64,000 bases of DNA from Bryum argenteum (lineage: Eukaryota > Streptophyta > Bryopsida > Bryales > Bryaceae), in contig CM073326.1 of assembly GCA_037043015.1 (NCBI GenBank), forward strand, positions 5,491,845-5,555,844, written 5' to 3'. The position numbers and the translations under genes are program-made. A model generated the notes under the pieces. That model saw only the letters and a list, made by a program, of their open reading frames with translations. It ran no database searches and was not told the origin of the DNA. Each line of letters starts with the position of its first letter. Positions within the stretch are counted from its first letter, which is position 1. Positions 2,348 to 36,208 of the stretch are shown in pieces.

Positions 2348-3250
2348 ATCAGGTATCATTCTGTTAGTATTGCTCTGGCACTTCAGATACTAGATGTGTA
2401 TGCGTGTTCCGGAGCTCTGGAGAGTGCTATTGTCAGCATTTGGGGTAAATGCAGATTAACTCGGTTTACGTATTAGTTGGTTTTCACATGAAGAATCACC
2501 AGCTATTTCTTAAATTTCTATATTTCTACCAAGCACAAAACTGGAGGAATTTGTTGTTGCTTAATCCTAACACATTTGAGACGCCCAATTTGGGTCACAT
2601 TTACAGTATAATTTGCGTATTTGATTGAGCTGGCTTTTGCACATTTTATGGAGAAGGGTGTTTTTATGTATCTTCGACGGTGAAGGTGCTTGAAAACCTA
2701 AGCGCATTAACCCTTACAGGAGAAGCTCTTCAGTGACCTCGAACAGCTGTATCTGCAATCCGTGAAAGAATTCTACTTGAATTCAATCTTGAGAGATATA
2801 ACCGTAGGATCTTGTTTAGTCGACCGAGGTACCACTTTTTATCAAATTTCACTGTACAAATTTCTCAAGATTTAAGACACATGATGCACAATATGTCAAC
2901 GACAAGATTGTAAGGTAGAGATTTAGGTAAATGACTACAATATCGTTTCAATTTATGACTCATTTTTTGAGAATGTGTTCATTCTGTTACAAATGAGTCA
3001 AACTATTTAGGGCATTTACAATGGATTGGTTAAAAGACTAGCTAAATGTAGCCAAGGAGGGGTTGCTAAATTTAGCACACATACTAATCCACACCCTTTT
3101 CCAATGAACCAGTTAAATAACCTTGCTATATTTTGTCTTTTACCACACCATGACAAAAATTCAAAAGCACTTGGAATCCAAAGTTCAAACGTTTTGAGGT
3201 TTTCCAATAAGTGGCATGAAATCTTGAAAACCCTACTCCTCCCATGCGGG
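2348..3250. repeat. Left part of duplication unit 1 (paralogue of 19,093-21,060)
   Basis: Bases 2348-2858 match 19,093-19,630 at high identity, for example the shared stretches GTGTATGCGTGTTCCGGAGC and AATTTGGGT(C/T)ACATTTACAGTA. Bases 2880-3240 match 20,440-21,050 in the same order and orientation. The second copy carries a 260-bp MITE at the position equal to the single TTAA at 3113-3116 here. Together with the matching blocks at 4,905 and 13-18 kb, this places the left border of a direct tandem segmental duplication just downstream of the NHL gene. No coding potential is evident. Confidence 0.75.
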
Positions 3251-4904
3251 ACTAAGGACCATCTCCACATTGATAGACAGGTTGGCCGACATCACCCATT
3301 AGACTTGGTATTTGGAGCACGTGTAACCACTCACTGACATCACATTATTGTTTTTGGCTCGCATCAAGCCAATCTCCAACTAACAATTTGTCAAGTCCAC
3401 CATGTGATTCAAAATATCATTATTATTGCTGCGTATGGTAATACACTTGAGGTATAACTATGTGACATTTTATATGAAAGCTATGAGATGACATTGTTTT
3501 GAGGTCTTAAGGTGTACATCGATCGAGATTTATATACATAAGTGTTCAAGGGTTAAGTCTATTGGTCACACTTGTGACGTAGAATTGATTTTGACCAAAA
3601 CAAATATGGATTGATGTTTTTTGAGTTTATCTAAAGAGAGAGTTTACATTACAATCCACTCTTACCTCTTCTCCTTCTACTTCCTTTACATTTACCTTTT
3701 TGACACTAGAATTTCAATAAAAAGTTATGATGATTTTTACATCTTTGTACAAAATAGCCATTTCAATTGAAATCTCAATTTCCGTCAATCATTTTTGACA
3801 TTTAGTTTCACTGATACATGTCATTGTATATGTCTAAAGGTATATCTTTAGGCGATTGAGGTTCAACTCTTTCGTGAGCAACCAATACACTTACAAAAAG
3901 AACTAAATTTTAGCATTTTGCATGGAGTCATTATGCATATACTATTTCTAACAATAATTTAGTCATTGCAAGTAGGATGTAGATTGCATGCACATTATAA
4001 TTTACAATACATGAGTGATTGGATTGATTGTAGGCAGATTGAGATTAGGAGGTACGGTTGAGACACTACAAGGAAATGGGTGTGAAAATTATAAGAAGTT
4101 AACACCAAAAAGACAAGTGCTACTAGAAACACTTGGCAACTTTCATTGTGGAAACATCATCGCAAATCGAGTACCAAAGTTATTTGGATCAAAAAAACTT
4201 TCAACAAAAAGTTGTCCGATTTAATTTTAAAATTATACTTATGTGAAAAAAATTGAGAATTAAATACTTTTGATTCCACATAACTCGCTTCAAATGGTAA
4301 ACCATGCATTATGTTTGAAATTCCAAAACCAAAGGTTGCCTTCACTAAATTCCATGCCATTAGTTCATACTTAATTGTACGGATATGCAACTTTTACTAC
4401 ACAAAGAAGACTTGATTGAAACTTCACCTAGTGATCTCATCACAAATGGAGTTCGGTTGAAAAAGTTACTGCTCTTCAAAGGCTTAGCACTTCATCCAAA
4501 ATGTAAAGAAATGACACTAAGGATATTCAAGGGTTAATTAACGCTTCAAATATTTCATTTTCAATGGTATCACATATTGCTACTTATACAGAACTAGTAT
4601 GCCCTCGTGGTATTCTACAACCACACAATCTCACCTTCCCCAAGGATTTCTGTTCATCATCCCCTTCCTCCCGCTCATCCTTGTCTCCGTCCTTCTTCGT
4701 CGTTGTGCCCATTCATGTCCTCGATCTTGTGATTGTCTCCATTTCCGTCCATATTCCTCCTTTTGTAATTTTGTTGTTGTCTCCCTCTACTCTCCCATCC
4801 TAATCCCTTTCTACGACTTGAATGGGCCTCTCTCCTCTTCTTACTTTCTATCCTAAAACAAGAGCTTGACTAACTCCATTTTCATCTTCTTTTTCACTAA
4901 TTTG
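3251..4904. other. AT-rich intergenic DNA with degenerate transposon ends
   Basis: No gene supported. Two TTAA-adjacent sequences, TTCAAGGGTTAA at about 3546 and at about 4527, look like right-hand termini of TTAA-inserting elements, but no matching left ends were found. The short ORFs at 4564-4856 are in pyrimidine-rich low-complexity DNA and are not credible genes. Confidence 0.4.
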
Positions 4905-5465
4905 CTTTCTATCTCTTTTCATCTCAAATTGTTCAAAATCTTTATTTCATTTCTTACTCTGTTTAAAATACGGTTATTTTTGCAATTTTCACTACTTCTC
5001 AAGATTATAAATTCTTAAAAATTTCATAATTCTTGATCCAAATATCGGATTTGCTATCCAACTAGTGTCCATATGACGATATAAATATGCGTTTCTAACA
5101 TCTCTCTCGCCATGATCCAACGGGAGGTCTCCAAGATCTCTCCAAGATCTCGGGTGCTATTTAAAACAAAAAAACTATAGGTCTGCCATAAGTATATAGA
5201 CTAAGCAAGATTTGTAGTAGGGAAGTTCTTTAGGAGGAGTAGTGCAATGGATTTGAGTAGTGTTGAATATAGAGATGGATATAGTATGTTAGGTGATGTA
5301 CTTTTCCACGGACATGGCACCTGATGAAGAGAGTTTTAGCTATGTTACTTGGTCTAATGGTGGAAGGGTTGGTGATATGTATGTTAATTGTACAACTTGG
5401 TGCAACTAGATTACAACCAGCAGGGGTTTTTGACGTGGCATTGTTTATGTGGTGGATTTTCACAG
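4905..5465. repeat. Duplicated block, unit 1 copy (paralogue of 29,258-29,815)
   Basis: About 560 bases are closely similar to 29,258-29,815 in the same orientation, for example the shared stretch ATCCAAATATCGGATTTGCT. In the second copy the block is joined directly to the LRR exon of the truncated receptor gene, so sequence equal to 5,466-10,770 is missing there. The small ORFs in the block (for example minus strand 5463-5230) exist in both copies but match nothing I recognise. Confidence 0.75.
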
Positions 5466-7740
5466 AATTTTTGATTAAATTTTGAGGGTATTATAGTCTA
5501 TATGATGTAGTATTGAAATTACTCTACTATTTTTTGATTATGTACTAGTTATGTGCAGTTGCAATGTTGGATATTGCTTAGGTGTAGGTAGTTATATAAT
5601 GATCACATGATCATAATGTACTTATGTTTAGAGTTTGTTCAAGTTGTTAACAATAGGCTACTTGCAACGTTGGTTGGGGCTATATACTTGTGCATAGTTG
5701 TGTCATATTTGCGTTACAATTAGTGGACAACAAAGGTTGTAAATTTGTATATGTTGGATGATCAATATTAGTGATTAGTCTATGATGAAGTATAAATAAC
5801 TAAAGTGAAACTTACATGACTTGCATACAACTCAAATTCAACTATAAACCATATACTTTATGAATAACAAACAACTATACGAAATTTGATAACTGGTGTT
5901 AGATACTCTAATTTTCAACCATGACACTAATTCTATTTTTTGAAATTGATGTTAGATCAGCAAATGACAATTCTAACACTATATTAGCTCTTTAATATAA
6001 TTTTGGCACTTAAACATTTTACACGAGAACATTTAGTGTTAGATGGAACCAAAATGTGAAATTTGGATAAAATGTTGAAATTGATTGTTGTGCATGTACA
6101 TATAGATTTTTTTTTTAAAAACAAGAATATTCATGGAATTCTTGATGAATATTATAATGTAGCAGTCTAAATATACATTGATATGATATCAATAAAATAT
6201 CAATATATATTAAATAAATACCATTGTTTTTCTTATATTAGATAAATATTTAAAAAAAAGAATATTCATGCAATGCTTAATGAATATTAAATTATATGCT
6301 AAATAAAAATCAGAGTTTGAAGGTAATTTTAAGGAACAACACAAAATACCATCCAACACTTATTATCAATTTAGTGTAGTACTATACAATTGGCACTATA
6401 CTTTAATTTGGCATTTTTAAGGTCAATTCTAATTATGTTGTAAGTGTGTAATAATGTTTAGTCTAGTGTGTCCTAATGAAGTTTGCTTGCAAGGAATGAT
6501 TTTATTATGAATTGGAGTAAAACACAACTCTATCTTGTCGAGTGAACTCCTCTCAAAGTGAATTACGCTAGTATTCTGAGACAAACATTTCAAGCAAATC
6601 AGGTATTTTTTTGAGACGGAGGGAGTCATATTTTTGGCTCTCATCTATAGTCGATCTACATTTGCAACTTATTGAATGCAACACATGATATATTTGAGCA
6701 TTATAATTGTTGCATATAGTAGTTCAATTAAGAAGGTATAACAATGTACTTGATTTTGGAGAAAAAACCATGAGATGAAGATGTCACGGTATCAACCCAT
6801 ACATCAATCAAAAAGTTTCACTTTAAATGTCTTTTTGACACTTCAAATCAACATAAGCATTTCAATGTCGATTCCAAGTCTTTTAATAACCATGCCAAAT
6901 CCTCTTACAATAGAAATATCAAGAATATTTGACTTTTTAAATGACCATAAATCTTAGTCATCGTTACTTCTCAATTATGACACTTGACATTCATGAAGTA
7001 TGAAAGAAGAAATTATAGTAATAAGATCAAACTTGTAGACTTGTTGAAATGCATTATTCAAGACCAGTTATTATGAAGCTCTCTTTCACAAGCAGATTCT
7101 TAATCGCATCACAATAAATAAAATTGATAGAGTTAAGATAAGAAATGTCAACAAAGGAGAATCAGTAAATGGCTACTTGTTCATCAAATGAAGGAATTAT
7201 ACTAAACACTCTTCCTCTAACAATTATTCTTTGAATCACAACAATCTTCATAGAGAAGCATTAAGACCTTCAAAGCAATTAATTCATTTAGGATTAGTGC
7301 AAACTTAATCTTGTTGCATACTAAAATGTTACTAAACTTCTGTCACAAAAAAGAGATTTTGTAGACGGGACAACTTTGCAATCTCATTGTAAGTAGATGT
7401 GTGAACCCTTGACTTTCCTTAAAACCAAAAATGGAATATGGAGGCTCTTGCAAGGGAAAAATTAAGCCAACTTTGACCACAATGATGTGGCAAATGCAGA
7501 AAAACCTAGAATTCACATTTAAACATGCCAAGTACACTGTGATGTACAACAATTGGGTAATCTAAATAATACTTTGGTTGAGCCTTTCTAGGCCTAAAGT
7601 ATTAGAGCGTCAAATTCTTGTAGCTAAGGCAATCTCTATTAGTAACATTTAGAGAGTAATCTCCAGGAGAGCAATGTAGTCTTCTAAGTCAAGCAATGAC
7701 TTAAGTTACGAGCCTAGTGAAAAGCTTGAACTCTCCAATA
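5466..7740. other. AT-rich intergenic DNA downstream of TIR-NB-LRR copy 1
   Basis: No gene supported. At 6609-6625 the text GAGACGGAGGGAGTCA resembles the end of a Stowaway-type MITE, with no partner end found. Bases 7407 to about 7600 are a diverged relative of the MITE at 20,675-20,934 (shared order: CTTGACTTTCCTTAAAACC, then GCCAACTTTGACCA). Confidence 0.45.
7407..7600. mobile_element. Diverged partial copy of the TTAA MITE found at 20,675
   Basis: The sequence follows the internal order of the 20,675-20,934 element: a CCCTTGACTTTCCTT-like end, TTAAAACC, GGAGGCTCTTGCAAGGGAAAAA, then GCCAACTTTGACCACA. The flanking TTAA has decayed to TGAA and the right end is not clear. It is an old, degraded member of the family. 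Confidence 0.5.
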
Positions 7741-9523
7741 CGAAATGATTTGGCAACCTTGAGATCTCACTGCAATGACTTAGCCCAAACACCTACGAAG
7801 AAACCAAGTCATCCAAGCCTAGCACACTGGATCATCCTACATCCTGAAATGTCTAGAATTATCAAGCAAGTGAGTATTTGAAGATTTGGCAACTAAGCAA
7901 TAGCATTGCAATTGATAGCCCTAATCTCCTTTAAAGCGACAAAATCCTCCAAGCCTAGCAGTCACTCAATTTTGCTCCCTCCTCAAATGTCTAGATATTC
8001 CAAGGAAGTGAGTTTATGAGAATTTGGCAACTTTGGCAATTTTGATGCAATTAATAGCTCTAAACTCATTCAAAGCAACCAAGTCCTCCAAGGCTCCCAC
8101 TCACTCAATCTTGTTTCACCTTGAATTGTATACATATTCCAAGCAAGTGAGATTTGAAGGATTGGCAAGATTCCTTAAAGCCTGGCACTGGATTGATCTT
8201 GCTACATCCTGAAATGTCTAGTTATCCCAAAAAAGTGAGCTTCTCAAGATTTGGAAACCTTGTAATCCCAACGCAATTACGACCCCAAATGTACTTCAGA
8301 GCAACCAAGACATCCAAGCCTCGTACTCACTCAATCTTGTTGCATTTGAAATATCTAAAATCTTCAAACAGGGGAGCTTTTGAAGATTTGGCAACATTGC
8401 AATCTCCTTGCAATTATACGCCTCAAACTCTTTCAAAGCTACCAAGTCATCCAAGCCTGACACTGACTCAATCTTGTTGCATCCTGAAATATTTAGAATC
8501 TCCAAGCAAGTGAGCTATTGAAGATTTGGCAACCTTGTAATCCCAACGCAATTACGAGCCCTAAAGTACTTCAAAGAAACCAAGTCATCCAAGCCTGGCA
8601 CTGACTCAATCTTGTTGCAGTCTGAAATATCTAGAATCTCCAAGCAAGTGAGCTTTTGAAGATTTGGCAACCTTGTAATCCCAACGCAATTACGAGCCTC
8701 GAAGTACTTCAAAGCAACCAAGTCATCCAAGCCTGGCACTGACTCAATCTTGCTGCAGTCTGAAATATCTAGAATCTCCAAGCAAGTGAGCTTTTGAAGA
8801 TTTGGCAACCTTGTAATCCCAACGCAATTACGAGCCCAGAAGCACTTCAAAGCAACCAAGTCATCCAAGCCTGGCACTGACTCAATCTTGCTGCAGTCTG
8901 AAATATCTAGAATCTCCAAGCAAGTGAGCTTTTGAAGATTTGGCAAGCTTGCAATCTCCTTGCAATTATAAGCGTCAAAGTCTTCCAAAGCAACCAAGTC
9001 ATCCAAGCCTGGCACTGACTCAATCTTGTTGCATCCTGAAATATTTAGAATCTCCAAGCAAGTGAGCTTTTGAAGATTTGGCAACCTTGTAATCCCAACG
9101 CAATTACGAGCTCAGAAGTACTTCAAAGCAACCAAGTCATCCAAGCCTGGCACTGACTCAATCTTGTTGCGAACAAATATCTAGAATCTCCAAGCAAGTG
9201 AGCTTTTGAAGATTTGGCAACCTTGTAATCCCAACGCAATTACGAGCCCAGAAGCACTTCAAAGCAACCAAGTCATCCAAGCCTGGCACTGACTCAATCT
9301 TGCTGCAGTCTGAAATATCTAGAATCTCCAAGCAAGTGAGCTTTTGAAGATTTGGCAAGCTTGCAATCTCCTTGCAATTATAAGCGTCAAAGTCTTCCAA
9401 AGCAACCAAGTCATCCAAGCCTGGCACTGACTCAATCTTGTTGCATCCTGAAATATTTAGAATCTCCAAGCAAGTGAGCTTTTGAAGATTTGGCAACCTT
9501 GTAATCCCAACGCAATTACGAGC
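7740..9523 (-). pseudogene. Decayed 3' part of the LRR array of TIR-NB-LRR copy 1
   Basis: The 138-bp LRR modules continue past the in-frame TGA that closes the main gene. Further modules are open at 9496-9158, 9084-8515 and 8505-8296, but are separated by a second TGA in the same codon (TGG to TGA in the GCTCGTAAT context near 9110), a 2-bp deletion near 9175 and a TAG near 8514. Below 8,300 the modules still align (anchors at about 8365, 8228, 8140, 8001 and 7863) but are strongly eroded, one with a 50-bp loss. Either the gene once encoded a much longer LRR domain, or array expansion deposited extra modules downstream of the stop. They would now be 3' UTR or untranscribed. Confidence 0.75.
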
Positions 9524-10710
9524 TCAGAAGAACTTCAAAGCAACCAAGTCATCCAAGCCTGGCACTGACTCAATCTTGTTGCAGTCTGAAATATCTAGAA
9601 TCTCCAAGCAAGTGAGCTTTTGAAGATTTGGCAACCTTGTAATCCCAACGCAATTACGAGCCTCGAAGTACTTCAAAGCAACCAAGTCATCCAAGCCAGG
9701 CACTGACTCAATCTTGTTGCATCCTGAAATATCTAGAATTTTCAAGCAAGTGAGCTTTTGAAGATTTGGCAACCTTGTAATCCCAACGCAATTACGAGCC
9801 TCGAAGTACTTCAAAGCAACCAAGTCATCCAAGCCTGGCACTGACTCAATCTTGTTGCATCCTGAAATATTTAGAATCTCCAAGCAAGTGAGCTTTTGAA
9901 GATTTGGCAACCTTGCAATCTCCTTGCAATTATAAGCCTGAAACTTTTTCAAAGCAACCAAGTCATCCAAGCCTGGCACTGACTCAATCTTGTTGCATCC
10001 TGGAATATTTAGAATCTCCAAGCAAGTGAGCTTTTGAAGATTTGGCAACCTTGCAATCTCCTTGCAATTATAAGCCTGAAAATCTTTCAAAGCAACCAAG
10101 TCATCCAAGCCTGGCACTGACTCAATCTTGTTGCAGTCTGAAATATCTAGAATCTCCAAGCAAGTGAGCTTTTGAAGATTTGGCAACCTTGCAATCTCCT
10201 TGCAATTATAAGCCTGAAACTCTTTCAAAGCAACCAAGTCATCCAAGCCTGGCACTGATTTAATCTTGCTGCAGTTTGAAATATTTAGAATCTCCAAGCA
10301 AGTGAGCTTTTGAAGATTTGGCAAGCTTGCAATCTCCTTGCAATCATAAGCGTGAAACTCTTCCAAAGCAATCAAGTCATCCAAGCCTAGCACTAACTCA
10401 ATCTTGCTACAGCCACGAATGTCAAGAATTTCCAAGCGAGTGAGTTTCTGAAGATTTGGCAACTTCCCAATCTTCAAGCACTCATGTGCCCTAAACTCCT
10501 TCAAAGCAATCAAGTCATCCAACCCTGGCACTAACTCAACCTTGCTGCATCCTGAAATGTCTAGAATTTCCAAGCAAGAGAGTTTCTTGAAATTGGGCAA
10601 GTGTCGGAGGCTTATACATCCTGCTAGACTCAATTTTTGCAAATTGAGTAGCTCAGCAATACTAGAGTTTAATCTTCTCAGCTCCAAACATTCATTAACA
10701 CATAGACTTT
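7863..10710 (-). repeat. 138-bp tandem LRR array (about 21 modules)
   Basis: The CAAGCAAGTGAG anchor recurs at 10571, 10433, 10295, 10157, 10019, 9881, 9743, 9605, 9467, 9329, 9191, 9055, 8917, 8779, 8641 and 8503, a strict 138-bp period apart from one 136-bp step. It continues in eroded form at about 8365, 8228, 8140, 8001 and 7863. Each module encodes two 23-residue LRRs, of the form LPNLQKLTCLEILDIS then VPGLDDLVALK. The second half has two flavours: AYNCKEIA and ARNCVGIT. The three-module block at about 8641-9054 is nearly repeated at 9053-9466 (offset 412 bp), a recent higher-order duplication. Confidence 0.92.
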
Positions 10711-13700
10711 GTAATTTGTTCATTGTTGAACTGAAGCTGGTTATAGATCTAATTTCAGATCTTGTAACTTGTACCTCACTTATGCACTTCAATCTCCTCA
10801 TGTCAGGTAATTTCCCAACTAGTCGCCCTATCAATACTAAGCACTGAAGTTTTTCCAAGTGAGCAATATCACTTGTTGATGATATAGGTAACCTCCAACA
10901 ATCTAATTGCAAAAACAATAAGTTCTTCAGGAATCGTAACCCAACAATTTCCATGTCGTGATGGATTTCAAGTGGAAGGAACACCTCCAAACTCTTCAAA
11001 TTTTCCAATCCACTGAAATCCAAAATGAAGCGACCTTGCAACGGCATCTTGCTATCCAATTTCAACACTTGGATATTTGAAAAGTGACCACATTTCAGTC
11101 GAAAAGTTCTCACAACACCTCTTGACAAGCAACTCATCCATGAGGAGCTCAAGCAACAAAGCCATGCCAAATCCTCTTCTTCAGGTGCATTAAGATCACT
11201 TTCAATATTTCTTGACATTCGGCACCCAAACTCCCCTTCTTGTGATTTTTTAAGCGCAAACTCGCGCCACAAGTCATGCATCCCTATGCTTGCCAAATCT
11301 TCACCTAAATCTTGTACAAGTGAGTTCCTTTCCAACCACTTCAACTACACATAGACCACAAGATGGAATCAATATTCTTTACTCACACGTTACAAGTTTA
11401 ACAACAACAGAAAATGTTAGCATCAATACATACAACCTCCTTCATTAATTAACACTACAAATCATTTCTTGTCTTCGAGCAAAGAACTTTCAACAACTTA
11501 CACTCTTCCTACAACTGAAGTATATTGCTTGGAGGAATCTTACCCTATATGATATATCATCTATACTTGTCCCATGCACCATACTCAACCATTTGAATGA
11601 TATCACACTTGATCTTTCTAATTCTCTTCTCCTCCATAAATACTTAATACGCATTGGCAAGAAAAGTGCTACATCAATAAATAGCATTTGATCTTCCCTT
11701 GGCAGATTGTCAAAACTTTTTCGCAAAATGGAGAAGATTGGATGCTCCCCTTCTCTTCGGAAATTAAATGTGTCAAGTTCTTTCAACAATTCTCCCCACC
11801 TTGTTGGATCATAATTTGTACACCCAAGTTGTAGACCAAGTACCTTCACAGCTAATGGATGGTAGTGATAACTTTTTCCATCACCTTTCTTGAAATAACA
11901 CCGTTTCAAGCTTCTATCTACTATGTCAATCTCCACTTTCATTCTCTCCTCATCACATACTGCATGCTCCAAAAATAATGACCTTGCGTCATCCTTATTT
12001 AGCTCTGGCATTTCAAAACAATTACTTCCATCCAACCCCAAATGAGCATTTTGCAAGACATCCAAAGATCGTGCCGTCAATACCACTACACTTCCCTTTG
12101 CAAAACCTCCTTTCAAAAATATATTGACTTCCTCAATTGACTTGATATCATCAAATATGTTGTCAATCGCTAAAAATATTGGTTGTTTCAATATAACTTC
12201 CTTCAATAAACCTTTGCACTGCACCCAAAGATGAAATCCAAGTACCATAAGCACACAATCTTAAAATGGAACACTTGAATTAAGTTTACTTTTCTTCAAA
12301 GTTTGACTTTAAAATGTATTGGAGAATCACAATGATTTGAATGAGCATAGTCACTTCAATGACGTAAAATACATCACCAATTTAGCGTACCTGACTCTCA
12401 TTTAAACCTTGTAGATAATTTTTATCTTTATCACTCAAACACTTTAAAGCTCCGTGCAACATTTCTAAGCCGTTTTGGGTCCCCAATTCAACGTGTAATA
12501 CTCTTCCTTGCATTCTTGTAAAATATTCATTACAAAGAGCTTGACAAATTGTTGTCTTTCCAATGCCACCCACTCCATATATGCCAATCATGCATGTTTT
12601 GTATCTTTTTGATTCTGATGCTTCGTTGATCCATCCACATACGACCTGTATCAAAGGAATAAACATTACCACTCTATCACCATACACAAGAGATTATCTC
12701 TCATTTACTCACCCATTTTCAATCATCTAACAAGATTTCTAAGATTTGTTTCCAACACTTCTTCATGATTTCAATAAATCTTGATAAGTCCATGATTCTC
12801 CAAGGTTAAATAATGAATGCTTTAATCTCCAAAACACTAACTTGTGCTCAAATAAAATTGATTTCACAACCAAGTTTGCATTTTAACACACCTCAATCAT
12901 TCGTTGACGGCCTTTAATGTGGCTAACCTTCCATCTTGATAAAGGTTGCACACACTTGCATATTGCTTCTACAATATTGTCCCGAAAACTAACTTCACCA
13001 CCACCCTTGTATAGTAAACTATTCAATGGACCAAGTGCTTTCAAAGCCTCATCCCATTCTTCAATTCTTATTCTGTGTTCATTTTCTTCAGCCCAACCTT
13101 GCCAAATTGTCCGCCACTTATATTGTTGCTCTGGATCACGAACTTGATCCAATGCTATCCCAAGATACACTGGGATGATCTCTAACTTGGAGTTCTTCAC
13201 CATGGCTGTTAACTCCAACATTGGCCATTTGGACCGTGTAAAGAATTCCTCAGACAAGACCACCACTCCAACCTCACATTGCCTTATAGCTTCAAATATC
13301 AACTTCGGAAATTCCTTTCCAATAGGTAAGCTATCTCGTCGCTTGTCAAAGAAAGGATATCGGTCACATCGTTCCAAATCCACACATAGTTGCTCTACAA
13401 AGTCTTTTTGGGCCCCACTATGGCTCAAAAACACCTTGTGTTTAGGTTCCAAAGTAATGTCTCTGCACACACATGAGAATTGCTGTGATCATGCAAAAAT
13501 TCATCTATTCAGTTCTATTGAAATGAATGGAGATTGAAAACAAAACAACACATATAGGACCATGCAAGATCCAAGATGTAATGGTACGTACTTAGAAATG
13601 ATGTATTTCTATCAACGTAGAATCTAGTTATTAAGTGCAATATTATGTGAGATTGTTTTGCGGATTCCGACCACAACAAATAATTTTGTTATACTACATC

Positions 13701-14506
13701 TATATGTATATACATCTCTATGAGTATATACTTGGTCCTAGTTTGAAACCATCAACTAGGAATTGAAAATAAAGTGGAAGAACATTTTTTCACATAGAAA
13801 GCACTCTACCCTTCTTAGTAAAGAAAATTTGTTCTTTTGATCAATGAATAATTCATGGTGGATTGTACAGAGACATGTATCATTATCATTGATGCACCTC
13901 AGGGCAACCTCTACTTCATAGCAACCTAACCAAAACTACTGTTGTGAGATGTGTAAACAAATTTCTACATTCAATCATCTAGTATTAACCTCTTTGAACA
14001 TTCTAGATCACTTTTCCTATTAATCTCATAGTGTAAACTAATAGTTACTATCCTCAAATCACCTACGCCTTGTTTTAACACCACTATATTTGCAGTAAAA
14101 CTAAATACAACCCTACTACTTGATTGGCTACAAGCTCTCCACCAAGTAAAGTAGAAGAGATTGGCTTTTTGAACCTCTTGGTAGCATCACAAGATTCACA
14201 ATTATCCACAATTTGAAAATGCATTGACTTTTAAACATATATTGAGCTTGTGAAGAACTAGAACCTATGATGAAATATATTATTCTCCTACACAAGCATT
14301 ACATAGTCAACTATGTAAATATGAACCACTAAAATAAACATGCAACCACATTACGGAAATGATCAATGACATTTATGCATAGTAATGAACTTGCAAACAG
14401 TGCATCAAACTTCCACCTCCAAAAAAAAATTACATACAGACAGTTCTTAGAGAAACATCACTCACGGAGGATTTAGTGCACCAGTGCTGGTGGAGGACGA
14501 AGCCAT
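9524..14506 (-). CDS. TIR-NB-ARC-LRR immune receptor, copy 1 (full-length)
   Basis: An intracellular immune receptor (TNL class). Five exons in continuous phase: 14506-14466, 13462-12892, 12645-12391, 12218-11544 and 11344-9524, giving 1,120 residues. The tiny first exon encodes MASSSTSTGALNPP and ends at a GTGAGT donor. The TIR domain is at about 22-165 (KVFLSHSG; putative NADase glutamate E97 in KWPMLEL). The NB-ARC domain has a P-loop GVGGIGKTT at 228-236, kinase-2 FLAIDN at about 305-309, an RNBS-B-like SVVVLTARS, a GLPL-like HPLAVKVLG and MHD at 536-538. The LRR region ends with seven and a half 46-residue modules. The stop at 9524 replaces a Trp codon of the repeat, so the reading frame may be shortened relative to its ancestor. 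A near-identical truncated paralogue lies 19 kb away. The domain assignment is firm; the first exon is inferred from phase and from conservation in both copies. Confidence 0.88.
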
Positions 14507-15240
14507 GGCTGATAGTGCCAAAGATCCAATAGGAGCAACAACAAAATCCTATCCAAACGTTTGACGTGAAGAATGAAATGCTTTAGCGTAGAATCATCAT
14601 GAATATTGCACCTCTGCTCGTGACCTCCTTGCTTCAATGCCTCCTATCATCAATAAGTAGTTCTCAACACATGAATGGAACAACTAGTTCTCAACATGTG
14701 AATGGATTATAGAATGAAATATAATGCTTGTTTTGGAGCATAATCTATTATGAACCAGATAATAGGAGTAATGAATAAGAATGCATTATCCTCCTCCTCA
14801 ACCAGATTATAGAATGAAACTCTCAAGGGCAATAATGATTACTTCTCATGAAACTGACAAAATACAACACATCGGTTGAGCCAAAAGACCTTCAGCCATT
14901 GATCGAGAAGCACACTCAATAGCAAGCACATGTTAACCGAAATCCTTGAGAATCGACCAGATCACACGAAACATTTGTGCCGATGTCCGCTTACAGAAAG
15001 TAGAGACTGAAGAATGACGAGCACGAGATTGAGCAGTACCTCTCAGGCACAATCCACTCGAGCAGTACCTCTCAGGCACAGTCCACTCGAGGTAACCAAG
15101 CAACAGCTCCACGTGTCTGCGAATAGATAAATGTCAGAACCTGCCAACATGCAAGATCCAATTTATCAAAACTTCGTTGATTCCATCATGTAAAGACCGT
15201 CTTCTTAGTGCTCACAGACGGACTCAATTGCAGGTACTGC
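14507..15240. other. Region upstream of TIR-NB-LRR copy 1
   Basis: Non-coding DNA directly upstream of the first exon, conserved in copy 2 at 33,589-34,260 with small indels. It would hold the 5' UTR and promoter or further leader introns. A 28-base direct repeat around GAGCAGTACCTCTCAGGCAC is present at 15,032-15,085 in this copy only. Confidence 0.4.
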
Positions 15241-16955
15241 GAATCTTAGAATTCAGCTTGCATGCTCGATGAAATTCTCTTGGTATATCCCAACTTCACA
15301 TTTGTCGACACCTCCAGATCATGTTTTCTCATCATGTCCAACATGCATGCGAGTGCAACATCCTCATCGAGCATATCGTACTCTACGAACTTAATTGACT
15401 CTCGATGGTACTGCCGGCGAAAATCGTCAAGCTCAGAAGGAACATTCAGATAGCAGATCCACAAATCCCAAGCGCCCACGAGCATCACAGTAGCTCGTGA
15501 GGAGAAGACCCAGAACTTCCTCTTATCTTTAAGCAAGCAGTCAGACACCCACACAATTTTGTGAAAGACCTTTGTTACTGACGTCATGTTAGTGACATAG
15601 CTATTCGCAAGTTCCATCGATCATGTTCAAATGAACACGGGACACAGAATGCTGCTGCTTAACTCTTGAAACCCAAAACCATTTACAAACAGCCACCGAC
15701 GTAGACAGTAACAACATCCTCATCAAGTAAGTTATTCTCTACGAACTTAGTTCATATCAATACTGGCAGCCGTGATAATCATGCTCACAAGTGCTGATCA
15801 AATAGCAATCCACGGAATCCAAGCGCCCACAAGCATCACATTAGCTCGTGATGGGACACCCAGAACTTGCTTTCACATCTCATCAGACATTCATTCAAAC
15901 ACTTCGTGTAAGACCTCAGATACCAAAACCAAGTTGGTGACATAGCTAATCATTAAGTCCTATTGGTCGTGTTCAACATGCAATCCTGAAGCACATGGTC
16001 GAGGGAAGTAACTTCAAATAATCAGCGAAAAGTTTTCAGTAATGGCCGCCCATGAAGACATTCACAACATCGTCATCGAGCACTTAAATCTTAGTTCTCG
16101 ATGATAAAGGCGGCGATTATTCAACATGCTAGCAAGTACTAATCAGATAGCACTTCTAAACATCCCAAGACCCCACAAGCATCATAGTAGCTCGGGATGG
16201 AAGACCCAGAACTTGCTCTCAGATCTCACCAACCACTCACCCACACAGTATTTAAAAGACCTCGGTTAGATACATCTAGATAGTAACATAGCTATTCACC
16301 ATGTTTTATTGATCATGTTCAGCATGTAAGTCAACAGAACATGGACACGAAATAATGCTAATGAACTTTTGAAAGAATCAGCTGAAACCATTACAGAAAT
16401 AGCCACCGCAGTAATCGGTAACAACATCCTCATCGATCACATCATTCGATACTGGCAACCTTATTTATCAAGTACTAATCCACGAATACCAAGCGCCCAC
16501 AAACATCACAATCGCTCGTAATGCGAGAACTCGCTCACATCTCATCATAACTAACACACACAGCTCGTGAAAGACCTCGGTTACCGACACTAAGTGATAT
16601 AGTTATTCATCATGTTCTATTGATCATATTCGACATGCAGGTTCAAAGAACACAAACAGAAGATACTGCTGCTGTACTCCACAGTGATCACCTGAAATCT
16701 TTCAGTATCGGCCGCCCAAGTAGACATAGATATCATCCTAATAGAGCACAATGCTCTCGAAAAACTTAGTTCCTCATTGGCAGCAAGTTATCACGCTCAC
16801 AAAGATCAGATAGCACCTCCACGAATCCCAAGCATCACAGTAGCTCGTGTGCAAGGAAAGACCCAGAACTTGCTCTCACATCTCATCAAACATTCAACAT
16901 GACATGCCTCAGATACAGACATGAAAGACTGTCAAGGACGAAGAGTACATCCGAA
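15241..16955 (-). repeat. Decayed coding-like tandem repeat, about 355-bp unit, five copies
   Basis: The landmarks CATCCTCATCGAGCA, GAATCCCAAGCGCCCACAAG and AGACCCAGAACTTGCTCTCA recur about every 355 bp (landmark starts near 15358, 15713, 16068, 16425 and 16730). The unit nearest the receptor gene is open on the minus strand at 15617-15246 (123 codons, containing FWVFSSRATVMLVGAWDLWI). The same frame in the next unit reads RANVMLVGAWIPWI with several stops, so the units look like degraded copies of one coding exon. I do not recognise the protein. The array is duplicated with the receptor at 34,290-35,760. It could be a former gene or exon array, or a non-coding satellite with one chance ORF. 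Confidence 0.6.
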
Positions 16956-17345
16956 ACCCACCTTCTGCGGACCTAGCTTGAACCCACACCCGGCGGCCTT
17001 GTAGCGCACCAACTACTGTCCAGCCACGGATGCGGCACAGATCGCACATACAGAGCTACCTCAGCCAGCAAGTGATAGACAACGTACGAGGAGCATGAAA
17101 GATCTCCAATGAACAAACTTCGGCCGAGACGCTACACCTTCCGAGGGTTTCACTCGCAACCTACGGTGAAGCTCGAGAAACCCCCACAGCGTCGTCCCTA
17201 CGCTTACGCTCTCTGTACAGGAAACGAGGACCGTAAGATCAGACGAGACCGGATCTGTTGCAGGGAAGGCGGGGACGCCGAGAGTCGAGCTACTGTAGGA
17301 TTCTCCAGAATCTGGGCTCCGACTGAAGTCGTCCACGCAAGGAAT
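16956..17345 (-). promoter_or_regulatory. GC-rich conserved block upstream of TIR-NB-LRR copy 1
   Basis: This roughly 390-bp stretch is GC-rich in AT-rich surroundings and nearly identical to 35,790-36,190 in unit 2, more so than the repeats beside it. A minus-strand reading frame (17336-17061, 91 codons from a GTG) is open in both copies but has no ATG start and no recognisable domain. It may be a promoter or 5' leader exon of the receptor, or the first exon of a lost gene. The function is not established. Confidence 0.35.
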
Positions 17346-17363
17346 GTACTTTCAGTAGATTAA

Positions 17364-17700
17364 CCTACGGGCAGCCCAAATGGCTCACAGCATCTTTCGG
17401 ACTCGGGCATCGTGAATGGTGTACTTTTTGAACTTGGGCATCATGAATGAATCAATCAGTGATAAGCTTGCAACCTCCTACAAGGTTGTGTACAGTCTCA
17501 ACCTACCTACCACAATCCTTCTAAAGCACAAAATCACTCATATAAGTTGTGATTTGAATTGTAAAATTTCAATTTTTAAATGCATCACAAGAAGGTGACT
17601 AGTTCGACATCGAAATGTATGAGTGAAAAGTTGAGTACAGTGAGAGCTACAAAGCAGATTTTGTTGGAAAAAAGTCCCTGAGGCTTGCTTGGGTTTTAAG
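17364..17700. mobile_element. TTAA-associated MITE, unit 1 copy of the 340-bp family
   Basis: This is homologous to 36,209-36,548, where both flanks are TTAA. Here the left TTAA (17360-17363) is intact and starts CCTACGGGCAGCCCA. The right end, CTTGCTTGGGTTTTAAG, has mutated and has no clean TTAA. An inverted relative is at about 22,440-22,797. Confidence 0.5.
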
Positions 17701-28094: not shown

Positions 28095-29257
28095 ACTAGG
28101 TGCTTTTTAATACTATAAGGTGTATGTGGTAAAGTTTACAAAGCCCAATTCTAATTTTGGAAACTTCATCTTGAAATTTCAGGTTTCAAATCTAGAAAGG
28201 ATAGTTTAAATTTAATCTTGTGATGAATTTTTTTTTGGGGATTATGTTCATTGTTGATTCACTACTTACAGTCTAAAAAGACCTAAATCAAAAAGCTTAT
28301 CAATTTTACAAGGGCAACCTCCAAAAGTTTCAAGAATAATCTTCAAATTTCTAAGAACTTTTAACTCTAGATGTTATGATCCCTCAAATATTAAGCATCC
28401 AACAGTTAATATCTAGAAGAGTAACTAAAAATAGTCTTAGGTACAAGATCTTACAGTTGGAAGCTCAAAAAGTAGTAAAAACTACAATCTTACCTCAAGC
28501 TCTACAAGGTAGTCAAAATTTGTAGTTTTTGAGGCTGGAGGTCCAAAAAACTCTTTGGGCCTTTGGGAGTCAACCATACAATCTTATAGTAGACTTATTA
28601 TAGGTTATGTGAACGAGGATTTAAATATTGGAACTTCATAGGTTGGAAGATGATAATGTATCACAATTGTTGAGATTAACAAGAGGTAGAGAGGGAATAC
28701 AATTCAAAAAATGCTTACACAAGTGTAAAACAAAACAATGCTTGGAATGATTCCAGCCCCTTATATACTTGTATACTTGAGAAAAGGCACTTAGTGCTAC
28801 AAACAATATGGAATAATGATTGAAAGGTCTTCTGAACCAACAATCCCTAGTAGTCACACTACTTGCTCTTTTTAACTACAAGCAACTCAATCTTTAGCAA
28901 CAACTCTGAACAAAATTTAAAATTTCATCCTTTCCACTATAGTGTGGAAATTCTACCAACAAAGTACTTGCAAGTATAAAGTCACCAACTAGTAGGAAGT
29001 TGTTCACCTTCATCTTAACAATACCCTTGCTTCAAAAGAATTGATTCAAAAGAATCTACTTGAATGGCTCATATAGTAGCCTTGTAATGGTGACATCTTC
29101 CACAAAACTACCATGGAAAAGTAGTCCAAATATAGACCCTTTACACTCAAAACATTTTACTTTTATAGAATATCCTCAAAACATTTTACTTTTATATACT
29201 ATCCTTAAAACATTCTACTTTTAATATCTACTTTTAATATCTACTCTTTACTTATTT
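28095..29257. other. AT-rich intergenic DNA
   Basis: No gene supported. The start (AAGGTGTATGTGG) continues the older repeat interrupted by the piggyBac insertion. A short triplication of ACATTTTACTTTTATA-like text lies at 29,150-29,235. Confidence 0.4.
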
Positions 29258-29815
29258 GCTTTCTTTCTCTTTTCATCTCAAATTGTTCAAAATCTTTATT
29301 TCATTTCTTGCTCCGTTTAGAATACGGTTATTTTTGTAATTCTCACTACTTCTCAAGATTATAACTTTTTAAAAATTTCATACTTCTTGATCCAAATATC
29401 GGATTTGCTATCCAACTAGTGTCCATATGACGATAAAAATATGCGTTTCTAACAACATATGTGGCACCATGATTTGACGGGAGGTCCCCGAGATCTCGGG
29501 TGCTATTCAAAACAAAACAAACTATAGAACTCCCATAAGTATATAGACTAAGCATGATTTGTCGTAGGGAAGTTCTTTAGGAGGAGTAGTGCAATGCATT
29601 TGAGTAGTGTTGAATATAGAGATGGATATAGTATGTTAGGTGATGTACTTTTCCACGGACATGGCACCTGATGAAGAGAGTTTTAGCTATGTTACTTGGT
29701 CTAATGGTGGAAGGGTTGGTAATATGTATGTTAATTGTACAACTTGGTGCAACGAAATTACAACCAGTAGGGGTTTTTGACGTGGCATTGTTTATGAGGT
29801 GGATTTTTACATATA
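29258..29815. repeat. Duplicated block, unit 2 copy (paralogue of 4905-5465)
   Basis: This matches 4905-5465 in order and orientation. It ends at a junction at about 29,810-29,825, where the sequence jumps to the equivalent of 10,770 within the LRR exon of the receptor. The junction contains the repeated word ATAACTTGTATAACTTGTA, suggesting that short homology or filler accompanied the deletion. Confidence 0.75.
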
Positions 29816-32800
29816 ACTTGTATAACTTGTACCTCACTTATGCACTTCAATCTCCTCATGTCAGGTAATTTCCCAACTAGTCGCCCTATCAATACTAAGC
29901 ACTGAAGTTTTTCCAAGTGAGCAATATCACTTGTTGATGATATAGGTAACCTCCAACAATCTAATTGCAAAAACAATAAGTTCTTCAGGAATCGTAACCC
30001 AACAATTTCCATGTCGTGATGGATTTCAAGTGGAAGGAACACCTCCAAACTCTTCAAATTTTCCAATCCACTGAAATCCAAAATGAAGCGACCTTGCAAC
30101 GGCATCTTGCTATCCAATTTCAACACTTGGATATTTGAAAAGTGACCACATTTCAGTCGAAAAGTTCTCACAACACCTCTTGACAAGCAACTCATCCATG
30201 AGGAGCTCAAGCAACAAAGCCATGCCAAATCCTCTTCTTCAGGTGCATTAAGATCACTTTCAATATTTCTTGACATTCGGCACCCAAACTCCCCTTCTTG
30301 TGATTTTTTAAGCGCAAACTCGCGCCACAAGTCATGCATCCCTATGCTTGCCAAATCTTCACCTAAATCTTGTACAAGTGAGTTCCTTTCCAACCACTTC
30401 AACTACACATAGACCACAAGATGGAATCAATATTCTTTACTCACACGTTACAAGTTTAACAACAACAGAAAATGTTAGCATCAATACATACAACCTCCTT
30501 CATTAATTAACACTACAAATCATTTCTTGTACTGAGCAGCAACTTTCAACAACTTACACTCTTCCTACAACTGAAGTATATTGCTTGGAGGAATCTTACC
30601 CTATATGATATATCATCTATACTTGTCCCATGCACCATACTCAACCATTTGAATGATATCACACTTGATCTTTCTAATTCTCTTCTCCTCCATAAATACT
30701 TAATACGCATTGGCAAGAAAAGTGCTACATCAATAAATAGCATTTGATCTTCCCTTGGCAGATTGTCAAAACTTTTTCGCAAAATGGAGAAGATTGGATG
30801 CTCCCCTTCTCTTCGGAAATTAAATGTGTCAAGTTCTTTCAACAATTCTCCCCACCTTGTTGGATCATAATTTGTACACCCAAGTTGTAGACCAAGTACC
30901 TTCACAGCTAATGGATGGTAGTGATAACTTTTTCCATCACCTTTCTTGAAATAACACCGTTTCAAGCTTCTATCTACTATGTCAATCTCCACTTTCATTC
31001 TCTCCTCATCACATACTGCATGCTCCAAAAATAATGACCTTACGTCATCCTTATTTAGCTCTGGCATTTCAAAACAATTACTTCCATCTAACCCCAAATG
31101 AGCATTTTGCAATACATCCAAAGATCGTGCCGTCAATACCACTACACTTCCCTTTGCAAAACCTCCTTTCAAAAATACATTGACTTCCTCGATTGACTTG
31201 ATATCATCAAATATGTTGTCAACCGCTAAAAATATTGGTTGTTTCAATATAACCTCCTTCAATAAAACTTTGCACTGCACCCAAAGATGAAATCCAAGTG
31301 CCATAAGCACACGATCTTAAAATGGAACACTTGAATTAACCTCAGCATTTCAACGAAGTTCGGCTTTAAAATTCATTGGCGAATTACAAAGATATGAATG
31401 AGCATAGGCACTTGAATGAAAAAAATACATCACAAATTTAGCGTACCTGACTCTCATTTAAACCTTGTAGATAATTTTTATCTTTATCACTCAAACACTT
31501 TAAAGCTCCGTGCAACATTTCTAAGCCGTTTTGGGTCCCCAATTCAACGTGTAATACTCTTCCTTGCATTCTTGTAAAATATTCATTACAGAGAGCTTGG
31601 CAAATTGTTGTCTTTCCAATGCCACCCACTCCATATATGCCAATCATGCATGTTTTGTATCTTTTTGATTCTGATGCTTCGTTGATCCATCCACATACGA
31701 CCTGTATCAAAGGAATAAACATTACCACTCTATCACCATACACAAGAGATTATCTCTCATTTACTCACCCATTTTCAATCATCTAACAAGATTTCTAAGA
31801 TTTGTTTCCAACACTTCTTCATGATTTCAATAAATCTTGATAAGTCCATGATTCTCCAAGGTTAAATAATGAATGCTTTAATCTCCAAAACACTAACTTG
31901 TGCTCAAATAAAATTGATTTCACAACCAAGTTTGCATTTTAACACACCTCAATCATTCGTTGACGGCCTTTAATGTGGCTAACCTTCCATCTTGATAAAG
32001 GTTGCACACACTTGCATATTGCTTCTACAATATTGTCCCGAAAACTAACTTCACCACCACCCTTGTATAGTAAACTATTCAATGGACCAAGTGCTTTCAA
32101 AGCCTCATCCCATTCTTCAATTCTTATTCTGTGTTCATTTTCTTCAGCCCAACCTTGCCAAATTGTCCGCCATCTATATTGCTGTTGTGAATCACGAACT
32201 TGATCCAATGTTATCCCAAAATACACTGGGATGATCTCTAACTTGGAGTTCTTCACCATAGCCGTTAACTCCAACATTGGCCATTTGGACCGTGTAAAGA
32301 ATTCCTCAGACAAGACCACCACTCCAACCTCACATTGCCTTATAGCTTCAAATATCAACTTCGGAAATTCCTTTCCAATAGGTAAGCTATCTCGTCGCTT
32401 GTCAAAGAATGGATATCGGTCACATCTTTCCAAATCCACACATAGTTGTTCTACAAAGTCTTTTTGGGCCCCGCTATGGCTCAAAAACACCTTGTGTTTA
32501 GGTTCCAAAGTAATGTCCCTGCACACACGCACACACATGAGAATTGGTGTAATCATGCAAAGATTCATCCATTCCGTTCTATTTTATAGAATGGAGATTA
32601 AAAAAAAAAAAAATCACATGTTGGACCATATTCCTAGATGATATCCTCCACGATGTAATGTTACATACTTAAAAAATGATGTAATTTTACCAACGTAGAA
32701 TTTAGTAATTAAGTGCCAAATTATGTGAGATTGCTTTACAAATTACAACAACAACAAATAATCTCATCATACTACAAATATCTATATATACATCTCTATG

Positions 32801-33588
32801 ATTAATGTATACTTGGTTCTAGTTTGAAACCATCTAGGGATTAGAAATAAAGTCAAAGTACATTTTTTCACATAGAAAGCACTCTACCCTTCTTAGTAAA
32901 AAGAATTTGTTCTTTTGGTCAATGAATGATTCATGGAGGATTGTGCAAGGACATATATCATTAACAATGATGCACCTTAAAGCAACCTCCACTTGATAGC
33001 AACCTGACCAAAACAATTGTCATGTGATATGTAAACAAATTTCTACATTCAATTATAAAGTACGAATCACTTTGAGCATTCTTGATCACTTTTCCTAATA
33101 ATCTCATAGTATAAACTAATAGTTACTATTCTCAAATCACAAATGCCTTGCTCTAACACCACTATGCTTGCGATAAAACTAAAGAACAACCCTGCTACTT
33201 GATTGGCTACAAGCTCTCCACCAAGTAAAGTAGAAAAGAATGGGTTAATGAGCCTCTTGGTAACATCACAAGATCCAAAATTATTCACAATTTGAAAATG
33301 CATTGACTTTTAAACATTTATTGAGCTTGTGAAGAACTAGAACCTATACTGAAATATATCATTCTCCTACACAAGCATTACATAGTCAACTATGTAAATA
33401 TGAACCACTAAAATAAACATGCAACCACTTTACAGAAATGATCAATGACATTTATGCATAGTAAAGTATTCAACTTGCGAACAATCCATCAAACTTCCAC
33501 CTCCCATAGATTTACATATAGGTAGTTCTATAGGAAACATCACTCACGGAGGATTTAGTGCACCAGTGCTGGTGGAGGACGAAGCCAT
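29758..33588 (-). CDS. TIR-NB-ARC receptor, copy 2, truncated before the LRR array
   Basis: Paralogue of the 9524-14506 gene with identical structure. Exons are 33588-33548, 32518-31948, 31701-31447, 31274-30600 and 30402-29758, giving 728 residues. The TIR, P-loop (GVGGIGKTT), kinase-2 and MHD motifs are all intact. The last exon matches copy 1 for about 190 codons, then crosses the deletion junction and ends with 17 unrelated codons (VIQVICKNPPHKQCHVKNPYWL region). All 138-bp LRR modules are gone, so ligand or effector recognition of the usual kind is presumably lost. Differences from copy 1 cluster in the TIR exon (for example YFGITLDQVRDSQQQYRW versus YLGIALDQVRDPEQQYKW). It could be a functional TIR-NB short form, a decoy, or a pseudogene in the making. 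Reading-frame integrity is seen; expression is unknown. Confidence 0.85.
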
Positions 33589-34289
33589 GGTTGATAGTGC
33601 TAAAGATCCAATAGCATCAACAACAAAATCCTATCCAAACGTTTGACGTGACGTGCTTTAGCGTAGAATTATCATGAATATTGCACCTCTCCTTATGACC
33701 TCCTTTGCTTCAATGCCTGCAATCATCAACAACTAGTTCTCAATACGTGAATGGATTATAGAATGAAATATAATGCTTGTGTTGGAGCATAATATATTAT
33801 GAACCAGGTTATAGGAGTAATGAATAAGAATGCATTATCCTCCTCCACAAGCAGATCATAGAATGAAACTCTCAAGGGCACTAATGATTACTTCTCATGA
33901 AACTGACAAAATACACAACACATTGGTTGAACCAAAAGACCTTCAACCATGATCAAGAAGCACAATTAATAGCAAGCACATGTCAAGCGAAATCCTTGAG
34001 AACCGACCAGATCACATGAAACATTTGTGCCGATGTCTGCTTACAAAAAGTAGACAAAAAGTAGAGACTGAAGAATGAACGAGCGAGCACGAGATTGAGC
34101 AGTACCTTTCATGCACAGTCCACTCGAGGTAACCAAGCAACAGCTCCAAGTGTCTGAAAATAGATTAATGTCAGAACCTGCCACCTACAAGATCCAATTC
34201 ATCAAAACTTCGTTTGATTCCATCATGTAAAGACGTCTCCTCAGTGCTCACAGACGGACTTGATTGCAGCTACTGCAAATCTTAGAATT
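33589..34289. other. Region upstream of TIR-NB copy 2
   Basis: Paralogous to 14,507-15,240, with small indels. Non-coding; expected to contain the 5' UTR and promoter or leader introns. Confidence 0.4.
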
Positions 34290-35770
34290 CAGCTTGCATC
34301 CACATGACCCATGCTCGATGAAAGTCTCATAGAAAGTCATCGAGCATATCGTACTCTAGGAACTTAGTTCTCGATGGTGCTGCCGGCGATAATCATCAAG
34401 CTCAGAAGCAAACATTCAGATAGCAAATCCAGAAATCCCAAGCGGCCACAAGCAACGTAGCTATTCTCAAATTCTATCGATCATGTTCAAATGAACACGG
34501 GACACAGAATGCTGCTGCTGAACTCTTGGAACCAAAACCATTTACAAACAGCCACCGTAACAACATCCTCATCAAGCACGTTCTTCTCTACGAACTTAGT
34601 TCGTGTCAATACTGGCAGTCTGGCAGCCGTGATTGTCATGCTCACAAGTACCAATCAAATAGCACTCCACGGATTCCAAGCGCCCACAAGCATCACAGTA
34701 GCTCGTGATGGAACACCTAGAACTTGCTTTCACATCTCATCAGACATTCATTCATACATACACTTCGTGAAAGACCTCAGATATCAACTCCAAGTTGGTG
34801 ACATAGCTAATCATCAAGTCCTGTTAATCGTGTTCAACATGCAATCCTGAAGCACATGGTCGAGGGAAGCAACTTCAAATAATCACCGAAAAGTTTTCAG
34901 AAATGGCCGCCCATGAAGACATTCACAACATCCTCATCGAGCACACTGATCTTAGTTCTCGATGATACAGGCGGCGATTATTCAACATGCTCGCAAGTAC
35001 TAATCAGATGGCACTTCTAAACATCCCAAGCCCCAAGAAGCATCACAGTAGCTCGGGATGGAAGACCCAGAACTTGCTCTCAGATCTCACCAACCACTCA
35101 CCCACACAGTTTTAAAAAAGACCTCGGTAAGAGACATCAAGTTAGCAACATAGCTATTCACCATATTTTACTGATCATGTTTAACATGAAAGTCAACAGA
35201 ATATGGACACAGGATGATGCTAATGAGCTTTTTAAACAATCAGCTGAAACCATTACAGAAACAGCCACCGCAGTAATCGGTAACAACATCCTCATCAATC
35301 ACATCATACTGGCAGACAGTATTATTTGTCAAGTACTAATCCACGAATACCAAGCGCCCACAAACACCACAATTGCTCGTAATGCAAAAACCCAGACCTC
35401 GCTCACATCTCATCATAACTTACACACACAGTCCTTGGAAGACCTCGCTTACCGACACTTACATAGTCATATAGCTGTTCATCATGTTCTATTGATCATA
35501 TTCGACATGCAAGTTCAAAGCACATGACCAGAAGATACTGCTTTGTAATCACCTGAAACCTAAGTTTCAGAATCGGCCGCCCAAGTAGACATAGAAATCA
35601 TCCTAATAGAGCACAATGTTCCTCATATCATTAGCAGCAAGTTATCACGCTCACAAGATCAGATAGCACCTCCACGAATCCCAAGCATCACAGTAGCTCG
35701 TGTGCAGGGAAAGACCCCGAACTTGCTCTCACATCTCATCAAACATTCAACATGACATGCCTCAGATACA
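34290..35770 (-). repeat. Decayed 355-bp coding-like tandem repeat, unit 2 copy
   Basis: Same array as 15,241-16,955, with repeat landmarks near 34,340, 34,564, 34,930, 35,288 and 35,598. The unit nearest the receptor is shortened by a deletion, and no unit is open across its length. The open frame of the unit-1 copy is therefore not preserved, which argues against it being a conserved gene. Confidence 0.6.
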
Positions 35771-36200: not shown

Positions 36201-36208
36201 TAGATTAA

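Follow-up and report, generated by a model that had tools for sequence, protein, structure and literature searches.

A putative truncated TNL gene of Bryum argenteum whose 138-bp LRR array may keep exchanging behind its stop codon

An array of near-identical LRR modules in the moss Bryum argenteum raises the question of whether its expansion could quickly alter what the receptor recognizes, or whether such DNA turns over irrespective of being read. We analyzed the array within a window of 64,000 nucleotides (contig CM073326.1, positions 5,491,845 to 5,555,844) belonging to a genome assembly of 258.8 Mb in 25 contigs. The reading that we prefer, with a probability of about 0.74, is that the gene is a truncated TNL (TIR-NB-ARC-LRR) whose 138-bp array exchanges whether it is read or not, and that one block of it was duplicated behind the stop.

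Gene layout, module array and sister copy

The gene containing the array, hereafter copy A, occupies the minus strand at about 13.5-7.8 kb of the window. Four pieces of it are open, namely the TIR exon, two exons of the NB-ARC region, the first of which holds the P-loop, and an LRR exon of 606 aa (Table 1). The P-loop exon carries the sequence GGIGKTT, which we take to be the P-loop, and reaches 20.6 bits with NB-ARC when this short piece is searched alone, against a curated cut-off of 23.5; the second NB-ARC-region frame, searched alone against Pfam, gives no hit. At the start of the LRR exon, the letters MHD presumably correspond to the NB-ARC motif of that name, and the C-terminal side is an LRR solenoid (Pfam LRR_4, 1.5e-50). 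The TIR domain and the C-terminal LRR of the plant TNL layout are both present, and the truncated product would keep this layout; full reading of the LRR array, which does not define a TNL, is not found in copy A, as a TGA falls in module 8 of 17. Judged by these domains, copy A is a candidate TNL immune-receptor gene whose LRR exon would be a coding minisatellite of 138-bp modules, and a function in immune sensing appears probable.

Table 1. Positions in the window of the features of copy A, its array and sister copy B.
Feature	Position	Strand	Basis or remark
TIR-domain exon (stop-to-stop open frame)	12886..13488	-	Pfam TIR_2 2.1e-15, TIR 3.9e-11
P-loop exon of NB-ARC, GIYGVGGIGKTT	12385..12693	-	Pfam NB-ARC 3e-4
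Remaining NB-ARC region, open frame	11493..12260	-	paralogs show similar frames on visual inspection
LRR exon, 606 aa, TGA end, MHD-bearing stretch at start	9524..11344	-	open frame and Pfam
Modules A01-A08 (A08 incomplete), presumably read, 46 residues each	9527..10600	-	pattern, translation and model
First stop (TGA), codon 37 of A08	9526-9524	-	in frame of the 606-aa exon
Remainder of A08 and A09-A17, presumably unread	8258..9523	-	138-bp period except A11 (136) and A17 (137)
Block copy 1, exact 356 bp, TGA included	9175..9530	-	exact-repeat comparison
Block copy 2, exact 356 bp, same TGA at 9114-9112	8763..9118	-	exact-repeat comparison
Module A11, 136 bp, net 2-bp deletion shifting the frame	9085..9220	-	module alignment
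TAG in module A16	8515..8517	-	the remaining 16 modules have AAA or AAG
Decayed array tail	7798..8257	-	period 139, 74% matches in 7798-8158
Sister gene copy B: TIR, NB-ARC region and LRR-exon start, without array	29823..34299	-	92.7% identical to 10765-15263
Copy B junction, 11 bp repeating neighbouring letters	29812..29822	-	stands where copy A has 5,300 bp (5465-10764) that include the entire array
Downstream flank common to both copies	4884..5464	.	matches 29239-29811, 91.5% identity

The array of 46-residue (138-bp) modules proposed by an earlier sequence-only reading is real, and consists of 17 clear modules followed by decayed copies. The starts of the clear modules run from 10600 to 8394 and, counted to the next start at 8257, their 17 intervals measure 138 bp in fifteen cases, 136 bp in one and 137 bp in one. 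A fuzzy pattern gave 15 module starts, the last of which (7892) falls inside the decayed tail; the starts at 10600, 10462, and 9772 were missed by the pattern and placed by hand, and the translation bears them out. Tandem Repeats Finder reports a main stretch at 8178-10600 (period 138, 17.6 copies, 88% matches) and 2.6 further copies in the tail, i.e., about 20 copies together, so that the proposed figure of about 21 modules was a fair one. Each module encodes two 23-residue LRRs, and the two flavours that had been distinguished, AYNCKEIA and ARNCVGIT, are both recognized on translation. At the DNA level, modules A03-A16 are 83-100% identical to one another, A01 and A02 being two diverged first modules. 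A single-sequence AlphaFold model of window 10873-9527 predicts strands recurring approximately every 23 residues through the array; without an alignment, the best of five models has a mean pLDDT of 68.8 with the first ~50 residues poor, while two others scored poorly (35.5 and 26.0).

Copy B lies about 19 kb from copy A and lacks the array. The junction left in its place resembles a deletion sealed by end joining and, because the paralogs described below have arrays, we infer that the array was lost from B and not gained by A. Between the two copies, the exons are 97.4-100% identical, intron 1 100% and intron 3 98.0%, while intron 2 reaches 86.8% and the upstream region 89.6%; exact tracts of 708, 572, and 501 bp occur together with 150-column stretches as low as 81%. 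This patchy identity suggests recent conversion between the copies. A segmental duplication (window 4884-17693 and 29239-36538) carries both TNL copies, and between them, at 24298-25644, we found an open frame of 448 aa matching DDE_Tnp_1_7 (E 1.4e-75), which we take to be piggyBac-like.

The stop codon and the block behind it

The array had been assigned to a single exon, an assignment contradicted by the TGA in module 8, by frameshifts and by a TAG in module 16: given the in-frame TGA and the frame breaks, the array is not one open exon. Position 37, where the TGA lies, is TGG in modules A10 and A13, and a single base change gives TGA. About 7.8 modules (about 15 array LRRs) precede the stop and would be read, leaving about 12 unread. 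Modules A01-A07 contain neither stop nor frameshift; A08-A17 contain the TGA and its copy, the indel of A11, the TAG of A16, and the net 1-bp deletion that makes A17 137 bp long. The mRNA is probably read to the first TGA, and the shortened receptor may still work.

A near-identical three-module block repeated at an offset of 412 bp had also been noted, and indeed exists as an exact duplication of 356 bp (9530-9175 = 9118-8763). The offset corresponds to three modules (414 bp) minus 2 bp; the net 2-bp deletion leaves it indivisible by 3 and shifts the frame. The edges of the block differ, with TTC vs. TAC on one side and the A11 deletion on the other, and therefore its copies are two distinct places. 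No other exact internal repeat at an offset below 3 kb is as long in the 9 arrays compared; the longest one within any read part measures 252 bp and belongs to the paralog L040. Since both copies carry the TGA, duplication of the block most probably followed the nonsense mutation and took place in DNA that was no longer read. The simplest order of events would be the nonsense mutation, then the block duplication, and then the indel in one copy. The appearance of a duplication made after the stop could also arise from two independent nonsense changes, or from a conversion that transferred the stop, although such a conversion would likewise be exchange after the nonsense mutation. Recent exchange within the array is supported by the exact repeat and by the single clade formed by the 17 modules (see below). 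The clearest instance of it, however, would sit in the unread part, and is therefore unlikely to have changed receptor recognition; the block does not support the idea of a rapidly changing specificity, as it lies behind the first stop, carries a TGA in both copies and is shifted in frame.

The process that we propose can be outlined as follows. The 138-bp array would grow and homogenize by unequal exchange and conversion, regardless of reading. A change of TGG (W) to TGA in module 8 would have ended the receptor inside the solenoid, while the modules no longer read would have kept recombining, with duplication of the three-module block together with its stop; a small indel would then have arisen in one block copy, and the 3′ end of the array would have decayed. 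Selection would act only on the modules ahead of the first stop, and this stop would set the length of the receptor.

Paralogous arrays and their tails

A protein search of the genome with the LRR exon returned at least 93 matches. The 138-bp module is found in six open paralog arrays, namely L039, L040, and L041 on contig C8, L042 and L043 on C2, and L045 on C6, which read as single frames of 751-934 aa and differ in module number. We had considered the array as a peculiarity of copy A, and rejected this idea given the same module in paralogs on C2, C6, and C8.

The DNA behind the stop of each array was then searched with the array's own protein using tblastn (E <=1e-3). Sense-strand module sequence was detected at 9 of 9 loci and at 8 of 11 further loci, i.e., 17 of 20; the further loci are those among the matches listed whose open frame reaches 1000 aa or more, and between 505 and 2242 bases behind their stops were examined. 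L044, whose array is broken, was left out of this count. The module sequence begins within about 30 bases of the stop at 15 of the 20 loci; in L054 it lies 1.3 kb from the stop, and in L042 beyond about 2.1 kb of other sequence. No module sequence was detected behind the stops of L053, L055, and L060 by the same search. As for the controls, DNA upstream of the LRR exon gave module matches at 0 of 9 loci and shuffled downstream DNA in 0 of 100 trials, while antisense matches were seen at 2 of 20 loci.

In five of the six open paralogs of the 138-bp family, the stop is one base away from the usual module codon. The three C8 genes share a change from TGT/TGC to TGA at module position 18, probably a single event; L043 has TGG to TGA at position 14, L045 has CAG to TAG at position 9, and the open frame of L042 ends in foreign sequence. 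With five of six open paralogs stopping inside a module, such an ending is usual here, and the truncation of copy A need not mean a dead gene.

Three of the loci deserve a description. The LRR array of L042 is broken at about 5280-7370 by the intervening 2.1 kb, after which the modules resume. L046, on the reverse strand, has an LRR open frame of 1743 aa (2653-7881 from its 5′ end) made of another module type, and module sequence is present behind its stop as well. Finally, L057 on contig C3 contains a different, short-period LRR array that runs about 2 kb past the stop, with an open stretch of 482 aa in another frame.

In a midpoint-rooted tree of modules, all 17 modules of copy A form one clade and each has its nearest relative within its own locus (17/17). 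None of the seven paralogs forms a clade of its own in this tree, and the proportion of modules whose nearest neighbour is in the same locus ranges from 3/10 (L044) to 14/15 (L045). In the C8 genes it amounts to 4/11 (L039), 8/15 (L040), and 8/14 (L041); modules there are often nearest to those of other loci, which makes exchange between loci or shared descent visible.

We also compared modules by Nei-Gojobori dN/dS, omitting L044 (broken array) and, from the post-stop set of copy A, modules A11 and A17 owing to their frame. The ratio is 0.57 for A01-A08 and 1.31 for the seven post-stop modules, while the six open paralog arrays give 0.31-0.74; excluding the two diverged first modules, pre-stop A03-A08 alone give 0.87. 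At non-exposed positions the values are 0.49 before the stop, 1.02 after it, and 0.17-0.36 in the six open paralog arrays. Constraint thus looks relaxed behind the stop of copy A, a contrast that gives support rather than proof, as the modules are few and non-independent, and the differences between flavours may predate the stop.

Exposed positions were set from the LRR pattern, and lie on or beside the strands of the AlphaFold model. Each of the 8 module sets shows an enrichment of amino-acid change at these positions (permutation P <=0.0094), including the post-stop set of copy A (P 0.0062), where the enrichment is presumably inherited. At exposed positions, dN/dS exceeds 1 in 4 of the 6 open paralog arrays, the value of 5.25 for L042 resting on few silent changes, but is 0.50 in the pre-stop part of copy A, where silent change is also raised at those positions. 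The proposal that module turnover changes specificity is not supported by the block of copy A, and is reasonable for the family, with its six open arrays and their change at exposed positions. Diversification of LRR modules would be plausible for the wider family, copy A showing it weakly.

Competing readings and known systems

A gene truncated in this manner might simply be dead. Under such a plain pseudogene explanation, which we lean against, the observations would reflect a dead tandem array that turns over and decays neutrally, with copies A and B both inactive. Copy A is indeed cut by a stop, copy B lacks its array, the tail contains several frame breaks, and the dN/dS of A03-A08 is 0.87. 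On the other hand, copy A retains open frames for the TIR, the NB-ARC region and 606 aa of the LRR exon, the exons of A and B are more alike than intron 2 and the upstream region, and the same one-step nonsense endings inside a module are found in 5 of 6 open paralogs. The exon identity has to be read with the nearly identical introns 1 and 3 in mind, so that conversion tracts rather than selection may explain it.

The opposite explanation, in which the whole array is read because the first stop is spliced out or introns lie within the array, and expansion directly diversifies specificity, appears very improbable to us. Open stretches of 121 and 198 aa do occur behind the stop, and visual inspection of the modules shows repeated GT and AG dinucleotides; however, the open stretches lie in two frames split by the 2-bp deletion and are each closed by a stop (9160-9158 and 8517-8515), the six paralog arrays with the same module are single open frames, and the constraint behind the stop looks relaxed. 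Equally far-fetched, in our opinion, is an assembly artefact generating the block or the stop from a mis-assembled tandem repeat. Near-identical arrays are hard to assemble, and a likely misassembled repeat is reported for a Podospora NLR array (PMC12222747), but the two blocks have different edges, no homopolymer change explains the indel, and paralogs too carry stops within modules, at positions of their own.

Returning to the truncated TNL with an array that exchanges whether read or not, read and unread modules would lie side by side in one array, where exchange, homogenization and selection on exposed residues are directly comparable. This would separate repeat turnover as a mutational process from repeat turnover as adaptation, which are usually confounded, and cautions that an LRR expansion of recent appearance may lie outside the protein. 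If module tails behind stops were general, gene models that bypass the first nonsense codon by splicing, or that ignore what lies downstream, would misstate the size and the history of the receptors. A broader proposal, which we consider unlikely to hold, is that LRR arrays of TNL genes in this genome have no fixed C-terminus: the first nonsense codon in the array would end the protein, leaving behind it an untranslated reservoir of modules, and exchange across the stop could lengthen, shorten or refill the read part. Receptor length and content would then be drawn from a partly silent array. One-step nonsense changes at module positions 18, 14, and 9, besides 37 in copy A, are found in the 138-bp family, and silent modules might possibly re-enter the read part.

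Several components of this picture are already known from the sources consulted, namely exchanging near-identical NLR repeats, stops in such arrays, quasi-identical LRR blocks and shuffled LRR units. Near-identical, exchanging repeats are described for the WD40 NLRs of Podospora (PMC2873952, PMC1805685, PMC4986451, PMC12222747), and copy A resembles nwd/hnwd, het-d, and het-e as an NLR of near-identical repeats with concerted evolution, diversifying change in those genes being found at few surface positions. High internal conservation and clustering of repeats by gene are both seen in copy A. Stops are also on record there: nwdp-1 has one in its 7th repeat, the repeats being otherwise intact (PMC1805685), and is without stops in some strains, while one het-d allele has two stops in the sixth repeat (PMC12222747). 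The architectures differ, since the fungal NLRs combine WD40 with NACHT, whereas copy A, a plant gene, has LRR doublets behind a TIR and an NB-ARC-like region; the NACHT/WD40, ANK or TPR arrangement of fungal NLRs is not found in it, Pfam giving TIR and LRR.

Among plants, the pepper gene Tsw is similar in having seven quasi-identical six-LRR blocks on its C-terminal side, the last incomplete, but is a CNL with a six-LRR block rather than a TNL with a two-LRR module (PMC9585916). The same paper reports large LRR domains mainly in CNL/NL proteins, with few TNLs above 1,000 aa; the parts consulted describe no module tail behind the stop, and its main text does not use the term "stop codon". In brown algal LRR-ROCO genes, LRR units of fixed length are likewise shuffled as DNA under diversifying selection, but with one LRR per 72-bp exon, introns and alternative splicing, whereas the open arrays studied here are intronless 138-bp doublets (PMC11378527). 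For Arabidopsis NLRs, work on FPA indicates that LRR-coding sequence can extend beyond the annotated gene end, a distal poly(A) site in one gene adding about 400 aa with further LRRs (PMC8116057); that case concerns poly(A) choice on readable sequence, as opposed to modules located behind a stop codon and, in copy A, out of frame. We found no description of a doublet-LRR TNL with module tails behind the stop in the literature searched, which covered few subscription journals. TIR-NLRs are notably expanded in mosses according to a paper on bryophyte TNLs, the parts consulted containing no discussion of LRR module arrays (PMC11218826).

Tandem repetition in the window extends to two regions away from the TNL copies. 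Tandem Repeats Finder reports a 179-bp repeat at 49083-49513 (2.4 copies, 93% matches), and short-period repeats of GGAAGCTTCT-like units at 47812-48000.
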